Below are positions 1,511 to 9,975 of a stretch of DNA of 46,591 nucleotides, piece by piece. The DNA comes from Gammaproteobacteria bacterium. Lineage in GTDB: Bacteria > Pseudomonadota > Gammaproteobacteria > Steroidobacterales > Woeseiaceae. The stretch is taken from contig JAOUGX010000019.1 of assembly GCA_029865385.1 (NCBI GenBank), forward strand, positions 1-46,591, written 5' to 3'. The position numbers and the translations under genes are program-made. The notes below the pieces were generated by a model. The model saw nothing but the letters and a program-made list of their open reading frames with translations, did no database searches and was not told the origin of the DNA. The first letter of the stretch is position 1, and each line of letters opens with the position of its first letter.

Positions 1511-1777
1511 ATGAAGCGCAAGCGCTATTCCGAAGAGAAGATCATTTCGATCCTGAAGGAGCACGAGGCCGGTGCCTCGGCTCCGGATTTATCGCGCCGT
1601 CACGGCGTATCCGAGCAGTCAATTTACCGCTGGAAGGCCAAGTTCGGCGGCATGGAGGTGTCGGATGCGAAGCGGCTCCGTGAGCTCGAGGCGGAGAACC
1701 ATAAGCTGAAGCGCCTGCTCGGCGAAGCCGAACTCGACAAGGCCGCTTTGAAGGAGCTTGTCGAGGGAAAATGGTAA
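1511..1777 (+). CDS. IS3-family transposase OrfA (helix-turn-helix)
   Basis: An 88-residue DNA-binding subunit of the IS3 transposase. An HTH_Tnp_1-type helix-turn-helix (about residues 5-45, with KRYSEEKIISILKE and SRRHGVSEQSIYRWKAKFGG) is followed by a leucine-rich coiled coil (RELEAENHKLKRLLGEAELD). The start is an ATG with AAAGGAGAT just upstream. The stop lies seven bases inside orfB, in the -1 frame relation normal for this family. A ribosomal slip at the end would make the OrfAB fusion transposase. Confidence 0.9.
   Translation: MKRKRYSEEKIISILKEHEAGASAPDLSRRHGVSEQSIYRWKAKFGGMEVSDAKRLRELEAENHKLKRLLGEAELDKAALKELVEGKW
1765..1771 (+). promoter_or_regulatory. Candidate -1 frameshift heptamer G GGA AAA
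   Basis: In the orfA frame the last codons read GAG GGA AAA TGG TAA. The run G-GGA-AAA fits the X-XXY-YYZ pattern for simultaneous -1 slippage. After a slip the ribosome enters the orfB frame exactly at its ATG (1771). Independent initiation at that ATG is the alternative. Confidence 0.6.
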
Positions 1778-2580
1778 CGGCCACGCAGCGACGCCGGGCC
1801 GTTGACCATTTGAAGAGCCGTCGCATCAGTGAACGTCGTGCCTGCCGGCTTATCGGGTTTTCCCGGTCGGCGGCCTGGCGTCCATTGCAGGGTCGTGACG
1901 ATGCCCGATTGCGGTTGCAGCTGAAGACCCTGGCCGAGCGATACCCGAAGTACGGCTGCCCGACCTTGCACGACATGCTGGTAATCGAAGGTGAGGTCAA
2001 AAATCACAAGCGGACCTACCGGATCTATTGCGAGGAAGGGCTTCAGGTTCGCACCAAGAAGCGCAAGAAGCTCGCCCGGCCGCGTGTGCCGATGCTGGTG
2101 CCGGATGCCGTCAACCAGCGCTGGTCAATGGATTTCGTCTCCGATCAGCTGGCTAACGGCCGCCGCTTCCGCGTGCTCAACGTCGTTGACGATTTCTCCC
2201 GCGAGTACGTTCTCAAGGTGGTCGACTTCTCGATCTCGGGCCACCGCGTTGCCAGGGAGCTGGATCGCCTATCAAGGAAACTGCCGAAGACAATCGTCGT
2301 TGATAACGGACCGGAGTTCACATCCAAGGCCATGTACTTCTGGGCGAAAAAAGCCGGCGTGAAGCTGCACTTCATCCAACCAGGAAAGCCAACGCAGAAT
2401 GCGTTCGTTGAAAGCTTCAACGGCAAGATGCGAGCGTACTGCCTGGATCTGCATTGGTTCGCCAACATCGACGACGCGAGATCAACAATCGACGATTGGC
2501 AACGACATTACAACCATGTCAGGCCGCACCGATCATTGGGCAAGAAACCGCCTGCGGTGTTCGCCAACGAGGCGGCCTGA
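1771..2580 (+). CDS. IS3-family transposase OrfB (DDE integrase core)
   Basis: The catalytic part of the IS3 transposase, 269 residues, related to the retroviral integrase fold. The N-terminal HTH_21-like region (ERYPKYGCPTLHDML, KNHKRTYRIYCEEGLQ) leads into the rve core. The triad is Asp121 (SMDFVSD), Asp178 (VVDNGPEF) and Glu214 (NAFVESFNG), which gives the DD(35)E spacing. The C-terminus HYNHVRPHRSLG is typical of the family. The length is normal and no frame break is seen, so the element may be active. Confidence 0.92.
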   Translation: MVTATQRRRAVDHLKSRRISERRACRLIGFSRSAAWRPLQGRDDARLRLQLKTLAERYPKYGCPTLHDMLVIEGEVKNHKRTYRIYCEEGLQVRTKKRKKLARPRVPMLVPDAVNQRWSMDFVSDQLANGRRFRVLNVVDDFSREYVLKVVDFSISGHRVARELDRLSRKLPKTIVVDNGPEFTSKAMYFWAKKAGVKLHFIQPGKPTQNAFVESFNGKMRAYCLDLHWFANIDDARSTIDDWQRHYNHVRPHRSLGKKPPAVFANEAA

Positions 2581-2604
2581 TATGCTCAATTTCCCACATC
2601 GCCC

Positions 2605-2630
2605 CATGCTCAAATTCAGGGGTACGGTCA
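2605..2630 (-). repeat. IS3 element right terminal inverted repeat
   Basis: Ends GGGGTACGGTCA, the perfect complement of the first 12 bases of the element. Confidence 0.85.
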
Positions 2631-2851
2631 CCATTGCTGCGCAAAGACATTATTGCCTCCAAAAAGTGAAGCGACAATCAGCGCACAACTATTGATTCTC
2701 CTGATACCGCGCACATCTATTCTCCTCGCACCGACGAAAATGCGACCGTCCGCTCGGGTCAGTAGCCGACATATTAACTCAGAATTCTCGGCCGACGGCT
2801 ATGCGAAGTAAAGTAGCCTCTCAGTTAACTTCCTAGCGACCGTCTCAGAAC
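2631..2851. other. Short gene-free stretch between two insertion sequences
   Basis: No convincing reading frame is seen on either strand, and no continuation of the interrupted dehydratase. It is AT-richer than the backbone. It looks like old intergenic or rearranged island DNA. Confidence 0.5.
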
Positions 2852-2872
2852 GGCCGAGGCTGTGTAAAAACG
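2852..2872 (+). repeat. IS1182-like left terminal inverted repeat
   Basis: Pairs with 4412-4434. The only difference is two extra bases near the inner end on the right. Confidence 0.85.
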
Positions 2873-2873
2873 T

Positions 2874-2882
2874 TGCTATAAT
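2874..2882 (+). promoter_or_regulatory. Candidate extended -10 promoter of the transposase
   Basis: TGC-TATAAT fits the extended -10 form (TGn before a perfect TATAAT). It lies just inside the left terminal repeat and about 30 bases before the transposase ATG. No good -35 box is visible at 16-18 bases, which an extended -10 can tolerate. Confidence 0.5.
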
Positions 2883-2911
2883 TTCCCCACCTAAGCGGTG
2901 CGGTAAATGTA

Positions 2912-4348
2912 ATGAAGCGCTTCATAGAAGGTGAGAACCGATTCCAGAGCACACTGTTTCCTGAACGCCTCGATGATTATATCGCCGAGGACAATGCGGT
3001 TCGCGTTGTTGATGCGTTCGTCGAGAAGCTGGATCTGCTGGATTTAGGCTTTGAGCGAGCGGAGCCGAGTGAGACCGGGCGCCCTGGCTATCATCCCGCG
3101 GTCCTGTTGAAGCTGTACATCTACGGGTATCTGAACCGCATCCAGTCGAGCCGGCGCTTAGAACGGGAGGCACAACGGAACGTGGAGCTCATCTGGCTGA
3201 CCGGCCGCCTGATGCCGGTGTTCAAGACCATTGCGGGCTTCAGGAAGGACAACCGCCAGGCGATCCGCAAGGTGTGCCTCGAGTTTGTTGAGCTGTGCCG
3301 CGAGTTGCAGTTGTTCTCAGGGGTGCTGGTGGCGATCGATGGCAGCAAGTTCAAGGCGGTGAACAGCCGCGACAAAAACTACACCAGGAAGAGCGTTAAA
3401 CGCAGGATCCAGAATACGCAGCAGAACATCGACCGGTACCTGGCCAAGCTCGATGCCGTGGATGCTGACGAGCCGGAGATCAGGGAAGTCAGCGCCAAAG
3501 AGCTGCAGAAGAAGATCGCCTCGATGGAGGCGAAGATGGCTGAACTTAAAGCCAGGCAAGCCGAGGTGGAGGTGCACCCGGACAAGCAGGTGTCGACCAC
3601 GGATGAGGATGCGCGTTCGATGATGAAGCCCGGTGGCGGCAGTGTCGTGGGCTACAACGTGCAGACGGCGGTGGACGAGAAGCATCACCTGATTGTTACC
3701 CACGAGGTCACCAACGCGACGAGCGATCGACAGCAGCTCGACAAGATGGGCAAGCAGGCGAAGAAGGTCCTCAATGCCAAGGCGCTGACAGTGGTTGCCG
3801 ATGCCGGTTACTACGAGGGACAGGCCATCGCCGAGTGCTATGCCGCCAGTATCACAGCGCTGGTGCCGAAGACGGACACCACCGATCGCAAGGCAAAGGG
3901 CAAATACACCAAAGCCGACTTTACTTACGATGCCAGGCGCAACGAGTACGTCTGCCCGGCCGGAGAACGTCTGACGTATCGCTTCGACAGTGTGGAAAGC
4001 GGTAAGACGCTTCGGGTATATATGCGCTACGGCTGTTCATCCTGTGCGCTACAAAAACACTGCACCACCGCCACACAAAAACGCCTCAAGCGCTGGGAGC
4101 ACGAAGACATCCTGGACAAGGCCGAAATCGAGTTAAAGAAAAACCCGCTTGCGATGCGGCAGAGAAAGGCATTGGTGGAACATCCCTTTAGTACATTGAA
4201 GCAGTCGATGGGGTCGACGCACTTCTTAATGAGGCGATTACCGAACGTAAAAGCCGAAATGAGCCTTCATGTACTGGCGTACAACATGAAACGGGCAATT
4301 AATGTGCTCGGCGCCGACAAAATCCTGAGGCAACTGCAGCCGGCGTAA
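2912..4348 (+). CDS. IS1182-family-like transposase (DUF772 plus DDE core)
   Basis: A full-length 478-residue DDE transposase. The N-terminal DUF772-type domain has GYHPAVLLKLYIYGYLNRIQ and QRNVELIWLTGRL. The catalytic core begins at Asp143 (VAIDGSKFKAVNS). A charged helical insertion follows at about 165-230 (KELQKKIASMEAKMAELKAR). The second Asp is 297 (VVADAGYYEG) and the Glu is 423 (LVEHPFSTLKQ). Between them a Cys cluster (YVCPAGE, CSSCALQKHC) resembles the zinc-ribbon-like segment of DDE_Tnp_1_6 proteins. No frameshift is seen. It has its own promoter candidate in the left end. Confidence 0.92.
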   Translation: MKRFIEGENRFQSTLFPERLDDYIAEDNAVRVVDAFVEKLDLLDLGFERAEPSETGRPGYHPAVLLKLYIYGYLNRIQSSRRLEREAQRNVELIWLTGRLMPVFKTIAGFRKDNRQAIRKVCLEFVELCRELQLFSGVLVAIDGSKFKAVNSRDKNYTRKSVKRRIQNTQQNIDRYLAKLDAVDADEPEIREVSAKELQKKIASMEAKMAELKARQAEVEVHPDKQVSTTDEDARSMMKPGGGSVVGYNVQTAVDEKHHLIVTHEVTNATSDRQQLDKMGKQAKKVLNAKALTVVADAGYYEGQAIAECYAASITALVPKTDTTDRKAKGKYTKADFTYDARRNEYVCPAGERLTYRFDSVESGKTLRVYMRYGCSSCALQKHCTTATQKRLKRWEHEDILDKAEIELKKNPLAMRQRKALVEHPFSTLKQSMGSTHFLMRRLPNVKAEMSLHVLAYNMKRAINVLGADKILRQLQPA

Positions 4349-4411: not shown

Positions 4412-4434
4412 CGTCTTTTTACACAGCCTCGGCC
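4412..4434 (-). repeat. IS1182-like right terminal inverted repeat
   Basis: Complement of the left end; it reads CTTTTTACACAGCCTCGGCC toward the outside. Confidence 0.85.
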
Positions 4435-4735
4435 GATTCCAGCCTGTCGCCACTTCCCTAAAGCAGACACTCGAACGGCAGGTTTCGGAAAAAGCAGCCG
4501 CTCAGATTGAATGCGAAGAAGGGGTCAGAACTTGCCGCTTGGCGTCCGAATCGTGCCTGCCGTCTGTGTGCGCGTTGAAGCCTCGACGTAGAAACTAGTA
4601 AACTGTGAATCGCCGCGGGCTTTTCGGAGACTCATACTTGTGAGCCGTGCCGCGTTAACCGTTCAATCCGTGGATCCCTGACCAAAATCGCGTTCTCGTT
4701 CACTGGTGCTCTATTTATAAAGCATATACGCGTTC
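4435..4735. other. Gene-free 300 bp downstream of the toxin gene
   Basis: No reading frame is supported. It contains GGGGTCAGAACTTGCC near 4520, a GGGGTCAG-type motif of the kind seen in dispersed intergenic repeats of gammaproteobacteria. The assignment is by general resemblance only. Confidence 0.35.
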
Positions 4736-5218
4736 CTACAATTCTTGATTATTGTCGATGGCGCCTCGCAACTTGACTTTGTTGAGTCGGCGACTTCTAC
4801 CAAACGTATAAAGGCATGGCTTTGATTCGCTTACGGATATATTGACCATTTTCTGAATCATGGGCTCAATGATATCGGCGACTTCGTCGGCTGTTCCTTG
4901 TCCGACAATTAAGCAGAACGCAGCCACGCCATAAGCTTGAATCGCGTTTAGCTCCAAACGACGATGGCGAATGCGCTGATCTCGGGTCAACACAATCCAC
5001 CCTCTTTTTCCGCATTCCGACAGCCAGTCCTCATCTTCCGAACCCGCAGGTATCGCCCCGCGAGCATGCTCGACATTGGCGCCCGCTTCTCTCATTCGCT
5101 CTAGCAGGCTTCGCGAGTAAATACTCTCATCGAGATAAAAGACGGCTTTTTTAAGCCGCTTTTCGGCAATCGAGTTCGCAGCGGATTGCTTCTTCGATCG
5201 CATCTTTTGAGATTTCAT
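4736..5218 (-). CDS. VapC45-like PIN-domain toxin
   Basis: Probable ribonuclease toxin of a type II toxin-antitoxin pair, with a PIN-like fold of the VapC45/DUF5615 kind. After a basic leader the domain opens with FYLDESIYSRSLLERMREAG (the early Asp is a metal-site candidate). It continues with GSEDEDWLSECGKRGWIVLTRD, where the acidic pair and the final Asp fit the PIN metal site, and then AFCLIVGQG. It begins inside the end of the antitoxin gene: the overlap is 68 bases from this ATG and about 53 from the next (5203). Translational coupling is therefore likely. The C-terminal 40 residues are basic and not recognised. RNA cleavage is inferred from the family only. Confidence 0.75.
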   Translation of the reverse strand: MKSQKMRSKKQSAANSIAEKRLKKAVFYLDESIYSRSLLERMREAGANVEHARGAIPAGSEDEDWLSECGKRGWIVLTRDQRIRHRRLELNAIQAYGVAAFCLIVGQGTADEVADIIEPMIQKMVNISVSESKPCLYTFGRSRRLNKVKLRGAIDNNQEL

Positions 5219-5858
5219 AATCTTTCGACAAGTCGACCAATGTATCGCCAGCTTTGAATCTGTCGGCGAGAATGGCTGTTGGCACGGCGCTACCTACAAT
5301 TACCGGACGGCCGAATGCTACACGCGGGTTTATTTCGACTGGCGCAGGAGCATCTTCCGTCACGCTCATTCGAGTGAACGGATATAGCTTGACGGGCAAC
5401 CCCGATGAATCGCGCTTAATACGCTTCAAATAGGCACGAAGAAGCGTGGCCATTTCAAGTTGCCCTGATTGGGATACGTTGATCAATTTGCCAAGTTTTT
5501 CGACGAGCAGATCGACGCCATCAGTTTGAAAACTGGCGTGGGCAAGCGGCCGTTCAATACCCAGACGCTCGCTTGTATACGCCAAGGCCTGGCGGACTTT
5601 GGGCAGCGGGATTCGATGATGCCGGCGAATCGCTGTGAGAACGTGAGCTTCGACCAAGTTCAGGAACGACAGACCGTCCTGCGGTTCGCCGTCCAGATCG
5701 ATGACATTTGGAAACCGGTGTTTGTCGCCTTTCGATCCATAGGTCGTACCAACGCACCAGGATCGGAGCGTAGCGTACGGCACATTCAGGTAGTGCGCGG
5801 CCTCGGCAAACGGATAGGCGGGTGTGCGCCGCAATACATCAAAGTCTATAGCACTCAT
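5151..5858 (-). CDS. VapB45-like antitoxin (MerR-type HTH plus DUF433)
   Basis: Probable antitoxin and autorepressor partnered with the PIN gene that overlaps its 3' end. The N-terminal helix-turn-helix (about residues 15-35, FAEAAHYLNVPYATLRSW) resembles the VapB45 DNA-binding domain. A middle region (LSFLNLVEAHVLTAIRRHH, PLPKVRQAL) follows. The C-terminus from about 180 is a DUF433 domain (VAFGRPVIVGSAVPTAILAD, then YEISKDAIEEAIRCEL). The ATG has a strong Shine-Dalgarno (AGGGAGG), and a perfect inverted repeat lies directly over and upstream of it. HTH-DUF433 next to a PIN-like gene is a known toxin-antitoxin arrangement. Confidence 0.77.
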   Translation of the reverse strand: MSAIDFDVLRRTPAYPFAEAAHYLNVPYATLRSWCVGTTYGSKGDKHRFPNVIDLDGEPQDGLSFLNLVEAHVLTAIRRHHRIPLPKVRQALAYTSERLGIERPLAHASFQTDGVDLLVEKLGKLINVSQSGQLEMATLLRAYLKRIKRDSSGLPVKLYPFTRMSVTEDAPAPVEINPRVAFGRPVIVGSAVPTAILADRFKAGDTLVDLSKDYEISKDAIEEAIRCELDCRKAA

Positions 5859-5892: not shown

Positions 5893-6482
5893 AAAACTGA
5901 CGAGACCATCTCAACATCCAATGATTCTGGCACACATTCTAGACAATTCCCGAAGCAGTTTGACGTTATTTGTTCCGATTCGAGGCGTACGGGTCGAAAA
6001 TTGTGCTTCCCGTAATATTGGCTCCGCTGTAATCGTTTGGCGTTTTGACGCCCAATCAATCGCGTCGATATTATTGTCGTTGGCAACGTAGTCCGTCACA
6101 CGGTCATACCGGAACCTAATCAGGCCAGCGGATCTGTGACCCCCTGAAAATAGCCGGTCGTGCTCTCCGGAATGCGCAAGGCCTAAATTGGAGCTATAGC
6201 TCGGAACCGTACTCTGAAGCCCTCGGAAGCGTCAAACTTCCGAGCATGCCTGGGCGGAAGCCGGCTCGCTGTGGCGCGGCCAATTGAAAGGTTTTTTGTC
6301 GGCCGATTGAAACCCTGCAAGCTGGCCAGGCGTCACTACGAAAGATGATCTTCACTTCCGGCCACAGCACCGCCCGACTCTGTTTCTTGGGAAATTCCGT
6401 AGAAACGGGGGCAAAAATCGTGCCCCCGTTTCCGCTAGTTTGTCCTTTGGACACGCGATAGAGTCCTCGCATCAACACCGTC

Positions 6483-6504
6483 GTCGTTGCGGTATACCAA
6501 CGAC
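6483..6504. repeat. Inverted repeat GTCGTTG / CAACGAC
   Basis: Seven-base perfect arms (6483-6489 and 6498-6504). The interior contains the palindrome GGTATACC (6491-6498). Confidence 0.5.
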
Positions 6505-6510
6505 ACCCAA

Positions 6511-6531
6511 ACTCTGACAGTGAGTCAGAGT
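6511..6531. repeat. Inverted repeat ACTCTGAC / GTCAGAGT
   Basis: Eight-base perfect arms with a five-base loop, six bases after the previous inverted repeat. The pair looks like a tandem of hairpins or paired protein-binding sites. Confidence 0.5.
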
Positions 6532-6922
6532 ACCCAAGCGCCTCACAGGGTCGTGCGACAGGCGCAGCGGTGAAAGCCGCCGATCCCTCTTAATGACAGA
6601 CAGCTGTTCGTGTCGCTATTCGACCGGCAGTCTGACCCAGTCGGCAGCGCTCCTGCGTCAGCCTTTCAACTCTATTGCGCCAGTTCCTGGTGCAACTCTT
6701 TAGAAAGCCGCAACAACGCGACGCCGAACTTGCTGCCGTCATGCCGGATGCGTGACCCAGTGATGTTCTGTGTCGAACCCCTGTTGCAACTCAGCCCGTC
6801 TTTGTGAGCGCCCCGGCGCCGCACAGAGACGGGCCTTTTGAAACTGGCGCAAGTCTGCGTCGCTACAGGCTTTGACCGTGCCAAGGCGCGGTGTCATAGC
6901 CGTCGAAACTCCCTGCCCGGCG

Positions 6923-6944
6923 GCCAGTCGACGGACTGACTGGC
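6923..6944. repeat. Inverted repeat GCCAGTC / GACTGGC
   Basis: Seven-base perfect arms with an eight-base spacer, about 210 bases before the first recombinase gene. Confidence 0.45.
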
Positions 6945-7156
6945 GCAGCCCACACCCGATTCCGCGGACCCTTGGGGTCGTTCTGGGGTGTGACGACCAG
7001 GGGGATTGAACCAACAGCACATCGCGCTGCTTAGGCCTTGCAATGAGGCACTCACGCTGTGACCGCCAGCTGATCCGCGGTTTATCACTCACCAGAGTTC
7101 AGGAATCGCAGTGAGAAACCGAAATGAGAACCCGGATTTGGATAGAGGAGAACGTC

Positions 7157-8107
7157 ATGAAGAAAGCAGGTGGTCATCGTAACTTTGGTTACGGCAAACA
7201 GATGGAATGGGCCGGCAAGCAGGCGCTGCGGGATCAGTACGGCAATGGACACTATGGGACAGTCACCGGTCACACCGAGCGCTGGCGACGGTTCGTTACC
7301 TGGTGTCGCGACGAGCGCGGTATATGCGATGCACGGGCGGTTGATAGTGATGTTGTTCAGGACTACGGACAATCACTCAGGGACAAGGTCGATGCCGGCA
7401 TGTCCCCGGCCTACGCACAGAACTTGTTGTCGTCGGTCAACGTGGTGCTGGAAGCGATGCGCGACGATCGGCAGATTCGCGTTGCGCCAGTCGAGTTTGT
7501 CGGCCAACGATCACGAATACGAACCGAGCAGCCGGCGGGTCTCGATCAAAAGGTCGTGCGCCAGTGTGCCGATCAACTGCGCCAGAACGGGCACGAACGG
7601 GTCGCGGCCACCGTCGAAGTCGCCCGGGCACTGGGGCTGCGTCTCAAGGAAGCCTCCCTGCTTAATGCACGGGTCGCGTTGGGGCAGGTCAAGAGACACG
7701 GTGCGGTCAATATCACGGCCGGCACCAAAGGCGGCCGGGGCAATCGGGTGGATCGCTGGGTCCCGGTCTCGGGCGCCGCGATTGGATGCCTGGTGCGAGC
7801 GGCCAGGGCTCAGGGATCGGGACGTAATCTTATTCCGTCCCACCTCACCTGGAAACAGTGGTACTCGCACATCCATCATGTCTGGGCCTCGGTCAGAGAT
7901 GAATTCGGCCTGAAGAAGATTCATGACCTGCGCGCCGCTTACGCCTGCGAGCGCTACAAGCAGTTGACTGGGTCAGTCGCGCCGGTAATGGCTAGCAGGC
8001 AGTTAGCCGATCGCAATACAGATCGTGCGGCACGACAGACCATCGCACAGGAACTCGGCCATGCACGCATTGAGGCGATCGCCTCCTACATCGGCGGTGC
8101 CCGATGA
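7157..8107 (+). CDS. Tyrosine recombinase, Integrase_1-type
   Basis: Site-specific recombinase of 316 residues, of the type often called integrase domain-containing protein in mobile islands. A core-binding region (about 25-110, with HTERWRRFVTWCRDERG) precedes the catalytic domain. Counting from this ATG, the catalytic set is Arg162 (GLRLKEASLL), Lys191 (GTKGGRGN), His256 and Arg259 (IHDLRAAYACERY), His302 (ELGHARIEAIASYIG) and Tyr311. All are present, so it should be active. The ATG at 7157 is chosen because GAGGAG lies seven bases before it; an earlier in-frame ATG at 7124 lacks one. It overlaps the next gene by ATGA. Confidence 0.8.
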   Translation: MKKAGGHRNFGYGKQMEWAGKQALRDQYGNGHYGTVTGHTERWRRFVTWCRDERGICDARAVDSDVVQDYGQSLRDKVDAGMSPAYAQNLLSSVNVVLEAMRDDRQIRVAPVEFVGQRSRIRTEQPAGLDQKVVRQCADQLRQNGHERVAATVEVARALGLRLKEASLLNARVALGQVKRHGAVNITAGTKGGRGNRVDRWVPVSGAAIGCLVRAARAQGSGRNLIPSHLTWKQWYSHIHHVWASVRDEFGLKKIHDLRAAYACERYKQLTGSVAPVMASRQLADRNTDRAARQTIAQELGHARIEAIASYIGGAR

Positions 8108-8502
8108 GCCGGCCGGCAAATCAACGGGCAGCAGCGCGCATCGCCCGGTCGCTGCTGGCAAAACGATTGCCAGGATCAAGACGCGGCACGCTGCGCCAGC
8201 ATCTTGCCCGAAGCGGATACATCGCCCAGACCATCTGGCGCCGTTGGCAGGTCGGTCCCTACCAATGGCAATTGAAGCACCTGCGTTGGTATCTGGTGGA
8301 ACGCACTAATGAGCATGCCAGCGGTACGCGTTACCGGCACTGGCTGACCGTGCGGTTATTGGTCCTTGCGCTTGATCACGACGGCTGGATCGAGCGGCTG
8401 GACGGGCCGTGGGTCAGGCCGAACGGTGAGCGTGGTGCGCTCAAAGCCGGCCGGCCGGCGCTTGAGCCGATCCCGCCGGCGAATCGAGGCGCGGGTCAAT
8501 GA
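8104..8502 (+). CDS. Unknown small basic protein of the recombinase operon
   Basis: I do not recognise this 132-residue protein. It is rich in Arg and Trp (for example YIAQTIWRRWQ, PYQWQLKHLRWYL, RHWLTVRLLVLAL) and looks mostly helical with a nucleic-acid-friendly charge. It has no signal peptide or membrane segment. It starts in the ATGA overlap with the upstream recombinase and ends in another ATGA overlap with the next gene, so all three are translated together. Context suggests a DNA-binding or core-binding partner of the recombinase; that is inference. Confidence 0.65.
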   Translation: MSRPANQRAAARIARSLLAKRLPGSRRGTLRQHLARSGYIAQTIWRRWQVGPYQWQLKHLRWYLVERTNEHASGTRYRHWLTVRLLVLALDHDGWIERLDGPWVRPNGERGALKAGRPALEPIPPANRGAGQ

Positions 8503-8876
8503 CTAGCAAACTAACAGACCGGGGAATGTCAGCAACGCGGGCTCTTCTGCCGCGATTCATTCGTCTGCGCGACGCGCCCTATTACCTCGGTATGGATCGT
8601 AATCGCTTCAATGCCGAGGTTCGGCAATGCCTCACAAGTATTCCTATCGGTCGGCAGGGTATCGCCTTCGACCGCCTTGAACTGGACGCCTGGGTGGAGG
8701 ACTATGTCTCCCGCAACGGGCGTCCCGCCAAAAGGAGCAAGATATGGGACGCAGAAGATCACCGGGCCTCTACAGACGAGGCCACAACTGGTGGATTGAC
8801 AAGAAAATCAAAGGATACGGAAGATTGGCGGAAAGCTGTGGCACGACTAACCTCGCGGAGGCGGAACACTACCTAG
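8499..8876 (+). CDS. AlpA/Xis-like helix-turn-helix protein
   Basis: A 125-residue protein with a MerR/AlpA-type winged helix near the N-terminus (about 18-70: PRFIRLRDAPYYLGMDRNRF, then EVRQCLTSIPIGRQGIAFDR, LELDAWVEDYVSRNGRP). This is the layout of excisionase-like recombination directionality factors. The tail is polar and low in complexity. The last 133 bases overlap the start of the following integrase in another frame, so the tail and the integrase N-terminus are encoded by the same DNA. Likely role: control of integration versus excision, or of transcription of the operon (inferred). Confidence 0.68.
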   Translation: MTSKLTDRGMSATRALLPRFIRLRDAPYYLGMDRNRFNAEVRQCLTSIPIGRQGIAFDRLELDAWVEDYVSRNGRPAKRSKIWDAEDHRASTDEATTGGLTRKSKDTEDWRKAVARLTSRRRNTT

Positions 8877-9874
8877 CGTTCCGCTTGAACGAGATTCGCA
8901 ATGCCATGGTCTACGGCATTCGACCGACACGGACGTTTCAGCAAGCAGCCATAAAGTATCTCGATGAGAACCAGCACAAGAAGAGTACCGAGAGATACAT
9001 TCACGCCTTCGATCGAGCCATGCCCCACATCGGGGATCTCCGGCTCGATCGTATTCACAACGATACGCTCGCGAAGTACCGGAGGTCCCGTCGCTCGGAC
9101 GGTGTCTCAGCCGGTACCATCAATAAAGAGTTGAGCTGTGTTCGACGGATACTGAATCTCGCCGCGAGGGTGTGGCGACACGACAATGGCATGTCGTGGC
9201 TGGACGTGCCGCCACTGATTGAGATGGAACAGGGACCAGCAAGAAAGCCTTATCCTCTAAGCTGGGAAGAGCAGGATAGCTTGTTCAAGGAGTTACCGGC
9301 ACACCTACAGCGTATCGCCTTGTACAAGGTGAATACCGGCTGCAGGAAACAGGAAGTGTGTCAGCTCAGATGGAACTGGGAAGTGCAGGTGCCCGAGCTT
9401 GGCACAAGTGTGTTTATTCTGCCAAGCAACGACGAGTTCCAGACCAAGAACAGTCAGGAACGAGTCGTTGTGCTCAACTCTATTGCGCGACGTGTTGTCG
9501 ACGAGCAACGGGGCAAGCATCGAGAATTCGTTTTCACTTACCGGGGAAACCCGAGGAAAACCATTCTCAACTCCGGGTGGAAACGGGCCAGGCTGCGTGC
9601 CGGTCTGCCGAATGTCAGGGTGCATGACTTACGTCATACATTTGGGCATAGGCTCCGCGCGGCTGGTGTGAGCTTTGAAGATCGTCAAGACTTATTGGGA
9701 CACAAGTCCGAACGAATGACGACGCATTACTCAGCGCCGGATATTGCTCGGCTCATCGAGGCGGCCGAACGTATATGCACTCGACGACCTAACACCGTGC
9801 TGCGCGTTGCCCGTCCCACAAATCTCCCACAATTTGAGAATCAAACGAAAACGGTACAGGAGGGCCGTTCGTAA
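8744..9874 (+). CDS. Tyrosine recombinase, tRNA-targeting island integrase
   Basis: A 376-residue phage-type integrase. The N-terminal arm (MGRRRSPGLYRRGHNWWIDK) is followed by a SAM-like core-binding domain (about 62-150) and the catalytic domain with Arg201 (NTGCRKQEVCQLRW), Lys235, His294 and Arg297 (VHDLRHTFGHRLR), His320 (DLLGHKSERM) and Tyr329 (THYSAPD). The full catalytic set is present. AAAGGAG seven bases before the ATG confirms the start despite the overlap with the upstream gene. The stop lies 24 bases from the 3' end of a tRNA-Arg gene, so that tRNA is the probable attachment site. The C-terminal 40 residues are unstructured. Confidence 0.9.
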   Translation: MGRRRSPGLYRRGHNWWIDKKIKGYGRLAESCGTTNLAEAEHYLAFRLNEIRNAMVYGIRPTRTFQQAAIKYLDENQHKKSTERYIHAFDRAMPHIGDLRLDRIHNDTLAKYRRSRRSDGVSAGTINKELSCVRRILNLAARVWRHDNGMSWLDVPPLIEMEQGPARKPYPLSWEEQDSLFKELPAHLQRIALYKVNTGCRKQEVCQLRWNWEVQVPELGTSVFILPSNDEFQTKNSQERVVVLNSIARRVVDEQRGKHREFVFTYRGNPRKTILNSGWKRARLRAGLPNVRVHDLRHTFGHRLRAAGVSFEDRQDLLGHKSERMTTHYSAPDIARLIEAAERICTRRPNTVLRVARPTNLPQFENQTKTVQEGRS

Positions 9875-9898: not shown

Positions 9899-9921
9899 TG
9901 GCGCGCCCGACAGGATTCGAA
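9899..9921. other. Candidate attachment site: 3' end of tRNA-Arg
   Basis: The tRNA 3' acceptor and T-arm sequence (reverse strand, ending in an encoded CCA) is the usual crossover region for integrases next to tRNA genes. I could not find a second copy to the left within the window, so the other junction is missing, diverged or outside. Confidence 0.4.
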
Positions 9922-9975
9922 CCTGTGACCCCTGCCTTCGGAGGGCAGTACTCTATCCAGCTGAGCTACGGGCGC
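9899..9975 (-). tRNA. tRNA-Arg (anticodon CCG)
   Basis: Reverse-strand cloverleaf. Acceptor GCGCCCG pairs with CGGGCGC. The D arm is GCTCAGCTGGATAGAGT. Anticodon stem CTGCC/GGCAG encloses loop CTCCGAA with anticodon CCG at positions 34-36. The T arm has the GGTTCGAATCC loop. CCA is encoded. A run TTTTTCCCCTTTTT follows the 3' end and may terminate the transcript. It reads CGG codons. Confidence 0.95.

Follow-up and report, generated by a model that had tools for sequence, protein, structure and literature searches.

Why does one operon encode two different tyrosine recombinases? In a 46,591-nucleotide contig from a gammaproteobacterium of the Woeseiaceae (JAOUGX010000019.1; we call this whole stretch the window), four overlapping plus-strand open reading frames (ORFs) lie at 7157–9874. 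The original prediction, made from the sequence alone, saw in them two recombinases, an unknown protein, and an AlpA/Xis-like protein working as one machine. We confirmed the four ORFs, which we will call g1 to g4. Our proposal, which we hold with good confidence, is that they form one end of an integrative mobilizable element, the end that serves mobilization and integration, and that this element sits in the 3' end of a tRNA-Arg(CCG) gene: g1 and g2 would be an MpsAB-like pair that nicks an origin of transfer (oriT), and g3 and g4 would integrate and excise the element. The genes are:

7157–8107, plus strand: g1, putative MpsA-like tyrosine-recombinase-type relaxase, 316 amino acids, from homology to MpsA of Salmonella Genomic Island 1, SGI1 (an alternative start is possible at 7124)
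8104–8502, plus strand: g2, putative MpsB-like core-binding-domain protein, 132 amino acids, from an iterated profile and a fold match
8499–8876, plus strand: g3, small conserved protein (PHROG 13517), putative excisionase or directionality factor by position only, 125 amino acids
8744–9874, plus strand: g4, predicted tyrosine integrase for the tRNA-Arg site (PF00589, phrog_1; adjoins the tRNA), 376 amino acids

Both recombinases were confirmed by Pfam: g1 matches Integrase_1 (PF12835, 1.7e-08) and g4 matches Phage_integrase (PF00589, 8e-19), as well as phrog_1 (3.8e-52). The predicted overlaps are also all in place. ATGA joins g1 to g2 (8104–8107) and g2 to g3 (8499–8502), and g3 and g4 share 133 bases (8744–8876). 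These couplings are conserved in relatives. The 4-base overlap of g1 and g2 is kept in 18 of the 19 loci read, with 10 bases in the other (L049; we number the loci that we compared with an L). For g3 and g4, the overlap of the aligned parts is 106–130 bases in 10 of the 14 loci with all four genes and 49 in three, and there is none in L035.

Published work attributes the mobilization of SGI1 to two proteins that act at a 125-bp oriT containing three inverted repeats: MpsA, a tyrosine-recombinase-type relaxase, and MpsB, similar to a core-binding domain (PMC6414798, PMC9299015). We took the sequence of MpsA from record OR851053.1 (L180). The residues published for MpsA (R162, H247, R250, H251, and Y319; PMC9299015, PMC6414798) fit the ORF in this record with an offset of 0, so we take that ORF to be MpsA. 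g1 is 33% identical to MpsA (6e-41) over nearly the full length, and the alignment reaches the C-terminal SYLG/SYIG. A profile of the g1 family matches MpsA at 5.9e-60, and a comparison of g1 and MpsA profiles gives 1.2e-41. In an alignment of 34 g1 sequences, R162, K191, R259, H302, and Y311 are invariant and H256 is nearly so; the counterpart of MpsA's H251 (the residue after R250) is not kept. The catalytic tyrosine is followed by just five residues in g1 and two in MpsA, and by 47 in g4. The structural model of g1 (pLDDT 88.7) matches the Tn1549 integrase, IntI, XerH, lambda integrase, and Cre, with TM of about 0.5–0.58 in the best Foldseek rows. We placed 36 homologues in an unrooted tree. 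There, MpsA groups with a protein from an Aeromonas plasmid (88/83) and falls outside the 29-row group containing g1 (100/99). Our preferred reading of g1 is an MpsA-type conjugative relaxase like that of SGI1 and not a second integrase.

The partner of g1 is more diverged. In its third round, an iterated profile search from g2 reached MpsB at 2.3e-12 in a set of 110 sequences; none of the 110 reversed sequences matched, and there were 15 background matches below an E of 1, which, where listed, are g2 ORFs themselves. With the structural model of g2 (pLDDT 81.5), the first 25 fold-match rows are all tyrosine recombinases (Z 9.7 to 5.9), the top four of them core-binding domains (Z 9.7 to 8.9), and the first unrelated row is at 4.7. 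Small helical folds can reach such scores by chance, and Foldseek gave no match to the g2 model at an E of 0.001 or better; the recombinase rows stand out only in a second look. From the profile search and the modelled fold, g2 is a predicted homologue of MpsB that resembles a recombinase core-binding domain. It keeps company with g1: a g2 reading frame is present in 83 of the 90 loci L051–L140, which were fetched with g1. Across genomes it is less common, with 15 of the 149 genomes searched having g2 (our own genome included).

The inverted-repeat region that had been noticed upstream of g1 is real and conserved. In 21 loci, the conservation covers about 750 bp and has a sharp left edge at a 31-bp palindrome:

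6402–7150, plus strand: conserved noncoding region, proposed transfer region (oriT plus flanks); the window is 67–92% identical to the other 20 of the 21 aligned loci
6402–6432, unstranded: GC-rich palindrome with 12-bp arms and a 7-bp spacer, the left edge of the conserved region in the 21-locus alignment
6794–6834, unstranded: signature hairpin GTCTTTGTG...CACAGAGAC, proposed counterpart of an SGI1 oriT repeat, found in 38 of 101 loci
6868–6901, unstranded: inverted repeat within the proposed oriT, with compensatory changes and 84% of cells paired
6919–6950, unstranded: strongly conserved inverted repeat within the proposed oriT, with 99% of cells paired
7077–7109, unstranded: imperfect inverted repeat just upstream of g1 (compare the 9-bp imperfect repeat upstream of mpsA in SGI1)

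The hairpin links this region to SGI1. Its general form, GTCTCTGTG...CACAGAGAC, is found 300–620 bp upstream of g1 with at most 3 mismatches in the 38 loci; when up to 4 are allowed, 10 of 17 plasmid loci have it too. As a control for chance, 5 of 460 shuffled 1.5-kb stretches match at up to 3 mismatches. The hairpin lies at −359 from g1 here and at −414 from mpsA in SGI1. By arithmetic from published coordinates, the oriT of SGI1 is roughly 300–430 bp upstream of mpsA. Because −414 falls in this span, the hairpin of SGI1 should be one of its oriT repeats, with ours as the proposed counterpart; this is deduced from coordinates and not from the published oriT sequence. In the tree of 36 homologues, the hairpin is present on both sides, and its label needs 8 changes. 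A literature search with the letters of the hairpin gave nothing on this subject among the matches listed. As for the palindrome at 6402–6432, its position resembles that of a terminator-like GC-rich 11-bp repeat of SGI1; a terminator scan did not call it. Its arm variants combine differently across the 21 loci, and its 7-bp spacer is variable. We also considered a minus-strand ORF at 6739–7092, which we rejected because relatives have frameshifting indels and interrupted frames.

At the other end of the operon, g4 faces the 3' end of the only tRNA found in the window, tRNA-Arg(CCG), which is at 9899–9975 on the minus strand. Two features point to an attachment (att) site:

9899–9943, unstranded: 45-bp attachment repeat inside tRNA-Arg(CCG), with an identical copy on another contig (G000:C161:401–445)
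9815–9831, plus strand: pair of CCCACA motifs 11 bp apart, perhaps arm sites for the integrase; the pair recurs at G000:C161:543 and 554

The locus has both an integrase that adjoins the 3' end of a tRNA and a direct att repeat, as expected of a tRNA-targeting integrative element. The CCCACA pairs are on the inner side of both 45-bp copies. We read the two copies as the likely ends of a single integrated element that is spread over more than one contig. Its length is at least about 15.8 kb, provided that C161 extends from its copy toward the inside. The insertion sites of the SGI1 family (trmE, or dusA or yicC for relatives) do not match, as the att repeat is in tRNA-Arg(CCG). The suggestion that one recombinase acts at the tRNA and the other at the upstream repeats fits well: g4 would belong to the tRNA site and g1 to the inverted-repeat region. 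The AlpA/Xis-like label for g3 found no support in the databases. g3 matches PHROG 13517 (1.8e-24), a family of unknown function, and had no match in Pfam, in NCBIfam, or in a sequence search of solved structures.

We propose that g4, with g3 as the likely directionality factor, integrates and excises the element at the 45-bp tRNA repeat. Once the element is free, g1, with g2 supplying the core-binding domain, would nick one strand at an oriT in 6402–7150, probably within about 6790–6955, by means of its catalytic tyrosine, five residues from the C-terminus. g1 would then lead the nicked strand out through a mating pore supplied by a helper plasmid or by an integrative and conjugative element (ICE). 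The element is probably an integrative mobilizable element; we infer nicking, transfer, the use of a helper, excision, and the role of g3 from homology, the conserved hairpin, the coupling of the genes, and the att repeat.

Could g1 and g2 instead be a second site-specific recombination system (for dimer resolution, inversion, or cassette capture) that acts on the upstream palindromes? The 12-7-12 palindrome at 6402 would then be its core site. This palindrome does have the spacing of a tyrosine-recombinase core site, is the exact left edge of the homology, and has a variable spacer; and relatives of g1 are found on small plasmids, where resolvases are common. However, no further copy of the palindrome turns up in the 21 loci at up to 7 mismatches, and its inner part has no other site in the genome at fewer than 2 mismatches (10 sites at up to 2, versus 4 for a control). 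Similar palindromes also precede a different relaxase-like gene (in L243 and L245; see below). Furthermore, both genes appear homologous to MpsAB and the hairpin to that of SGI1, and g1 stops shortly after its tyrosine, five residues on, where g4 continues for 47. A second recombination system therefore seems unlikely to us. One version of it, integron-like capture at the 6402 palindrome, we rejected because neither the loci nor the genome has a close second copy; the only repeat that turned up upstream looks REP-like.

Two other explanations seem more improbable still. One sees in the upstream region a large structured RNA with a guiding or regulatory role toward g1. On the plus strand, the region's fold has a z of −7.1 (20 shuffles), or −4.3 for the last 700 bases (12 shuffles), and its consensus energy is −353, whereas five column shuffles give −213 to −229 and the coding region of g1 gives −245. 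Also, SGI1 is reported to make a 650–700-base RNA in the corresponding region (PMC9299015). But in paired columns, the ratio of G-U to A-C changes is 51:51 in the upstream region, versus 81:3 in the RNase P of relatives. (We counted changes in helices predicted on both strands, using 28 of 44 RNase P matches, at an identity of 0.78 for RNase P versus 0.74; the cells counted depend on one another, but the difference is large.) When G-U pairs are disallowed in the folding, the ratios become 69:46 and 112:12. Because of this contrast, we take the upstream repeats to be conserved as DNA dyads, not as RNA helices. Rfam had no match in the upstream region, with only the tRNA above the cut-off. Between the proposed oriT and g1, which is the place of sgm-sRNA in SGI1, the sequence is conserved, without RNA-type covariation and without a promoter match. 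An RNA that needs little structure is the form of this explanation that remains. The other explanation, just as improbable in our view, is the single integration machine that the tight coupling of the four genes had seemed to imply. Our set of g1 loci came to 103 distinct ones after we dropped 13 duplicates; its make-up is shaped by the search, which kept the best 80 of 369 contig matches, over 40 of them from Pseudomonas. The genes overlap, and the check that had been suggested, conserved co-occurrence, did find all four in the same order at 14 of the 103. But 75 of the 103 g1 loci, with at least 2 kb downstream, hold neither g3 nor g4, and 21 of 30 g3 loci lack g2. g1-g2 and g3-g4 are two separable modules.

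Several observations weigh against our proposal of an MpsAB-like module in a mobilizable element. It extrapolates to the window from more distant systems, and nicking and transfer are inferred for the close relatives as well. A direct comparison of g2 and MpsB profiles gave no match, and the link between them needs plasmid intermediates. A g2-like stretch that lacks g1 is seen in L006 and once in L045. No empty site was found: among the relatives whose loci we read, neither flank gene has a tRNA within about 1.5 kb. Of the 38 loci with the hairpin, about 20 are close kin of the window. The hairpin is absent from the large Pseudomonas clade, except for L126, and from all ten IMG/VR loci. It is likewise absent from L045–L049, L073, L081, L082, L087, and L089, and from the plasmids L143 and L204–L207; L208 has only a related palindrome. 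Finally, we found no sigma-70-like promoter or terminator in 6100–7200, so a transcript like sgm-sRNA is unproven.

The two modules have different distributions. For ten of the loci with all four genes, a tRNA was found beside them: tRNA-Arg (CCG, ACG, or TCG) or tRNA-Phe. In other loci, what comes after g2 is a serine recombinase in L033, another tyrosine recombinase in L040, a PrtN-domain protein (PF11112) in L042, and KfrA in the Halomonas plasmid L005. All 30 of the g3 loci have a g4-like gene, preceded by g2 in 9, by a different Integrase_1-type gene in 10, and by neither in 11 (one of these, L219, has almost no upstream sequence). Among 100 plasmid records with a match to g1 (33 of them over at least 80% of g1), 80 are typed as non-mobilizable, as are 7 of the 10 hairpin-bearing plasmids examined. 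g1-g2 is common in Pseudomonas (L088, L090–L130), without the hairpin save in L126. In L112, g1-g2 is near an integrase and a pair of genes for an OLD-like ATPase and a UvrD helicase, which we take to resemble the Gabija defence pair. A search of IMG/VR found no relative with g1 alone as the query and 10 with an alignment. These contigs (L131–L140) are classed as viral and carry g1 homologues, most with g2; they may be mislabelled mobilizable elements.

The 10 Integrase_1-type proteins that precede g3-g4 in place of g1-g2 end three residues after the tyrosine and have a conserved upstream region of their own. This family has the fused PF12834-PF12835 form in L216, and a copy is found on contig C7 of the same genome (L228, L240). 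In a plasmid of Acinetobacter johnsonii (L205, 2590–5540), an Integrase_1-type gene, a small overlapping ORF, and a type IV coupling protein (TrwB_AAD_bind, 3.3e-29) stand in a row; the first of these also has the fused form and is distant from g1 (32.5% identity over half of g1). A coupling protein directly after such a gene is separate evidence in favour of our mobilization proposal. An exact hairpin, GTCACTAC...GTAGTGAC, lies at −484 to −694 in five of ten loci of this second family (seven chromosomal and three plasmid), including the C7 copy and the Acinetobacter plasmid, and exact GTCACTAC is present in 4 of 7 fetched loci that are linked to g3-g4. By chance, 20 of 330 shuffled stretches match the hairpin at up to 3 mismatches. 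As for the palindromes similar to that at 6402 in L243 and L245, which lie upstream of the second-family gene, a match with up to 6 mismatches is also seen in 35 of 330 shuffled stretches. These patterns suggest a second relaxase family with its own oriT signature. More broadly, tyrosine-recombinase-type relaxases could be a large and mostly unrecognised class of mobilization proteins. There would be no fewer than two oriT signatures, GTCTCTGTG for MpsA together with MpsB and GTCACTAC for the fused PF12834-PF12835 form; both would swap before the same directionality-factor-integrase cassette and make transferable many plasmids that are typed as non-mobilizable. We give this wider idea an even chance of being right.

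How does the locus compare to known systems? As in the mpsAB-oriT module of SGI1, there is an MpsA-type protein with its catalytic residues and with the tyrosine at the extreme C-terminus, an adjacent MpsB-like protein, and, upstream, a GC-rich putative oriT with inverted repeats and the same hairpin core. Unlike the SGI1 module, the genes are coupled by ATGA and fused to a tRNA-Arg integrase cassette, the conserved palindromic region is longer, and the relaxases share just 33% identity. The dusA-specific SGI1-like islands of Vibrio are described as also combining mpsAB-oriT with an integrase other than that of SGI1, and as having a PrtN-domain protein as the proposed directionality factor (compare the PrtN-domain gene in L042); but their MpsA is given as 64–93% identical to that of SGI1, they carry traG/traN, and they insert in dusA (PMC8409611). 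TcpM of pCW3 and MobK of pIGRK are, like g1, tyrosine-recombinase-like relaxases (PMC8152469) with an oriT reported upstream of the gene (PMC9299015); we set them apart by their description, which states that they have no MpsB equivalent and no significant similarity to MpsA (PMC8152469). XerC/XerD, integron, and lambda-type recombinases share the catalytic fold of g1 and the core-binding fold of g2. Unlike them, g1 ends soon after its tyrosine, and its partner is a separate core-binding-like protein. In the open-licence papers that our searches found, the islands credited with MpsAB are SGI1-related, with Vibrio and marine relatives among them (PMC8409611, PMC9035990), and we came across no MpsAB module outside SGI1-related elements there. 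What is new here is a predicted MpsAB-type module that is outside the SGI1 family by its integration site, is fused to a tRNA integrase cassette, and is part of a wider family.

Elsewhere in the window, 1511–4348 and 4736–5858 seem to be cargo: judging from the translations, they hold IS3- and IS1182-type transposase-like genes and a minus-strand toxin-antitoxin-like pair. A repeat of about 110–130 bp at 4432–4564, possibly REP-like, is common to L034 (two copies) and L051.

The discoverers of the SGI1 mobilization module wrote that it seemed unique (PMC9299015), and attempts to map its nic site are reported to have failed (PMC6414798). Related modules that share the hairpin, in other bacteria and on small plasmids, would supply diverged oriT sequences for pinpointing the nick by comparison. 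The non-mobilizable typing of 80 of the 100 plasmid records that match g1 suggests a blind spot in plasmid typing. And a putative relaxase with its tyrosine at the very end and a separate core-binding protein would be a natural test of how a recombinase fold becomes a one-strand nickase.

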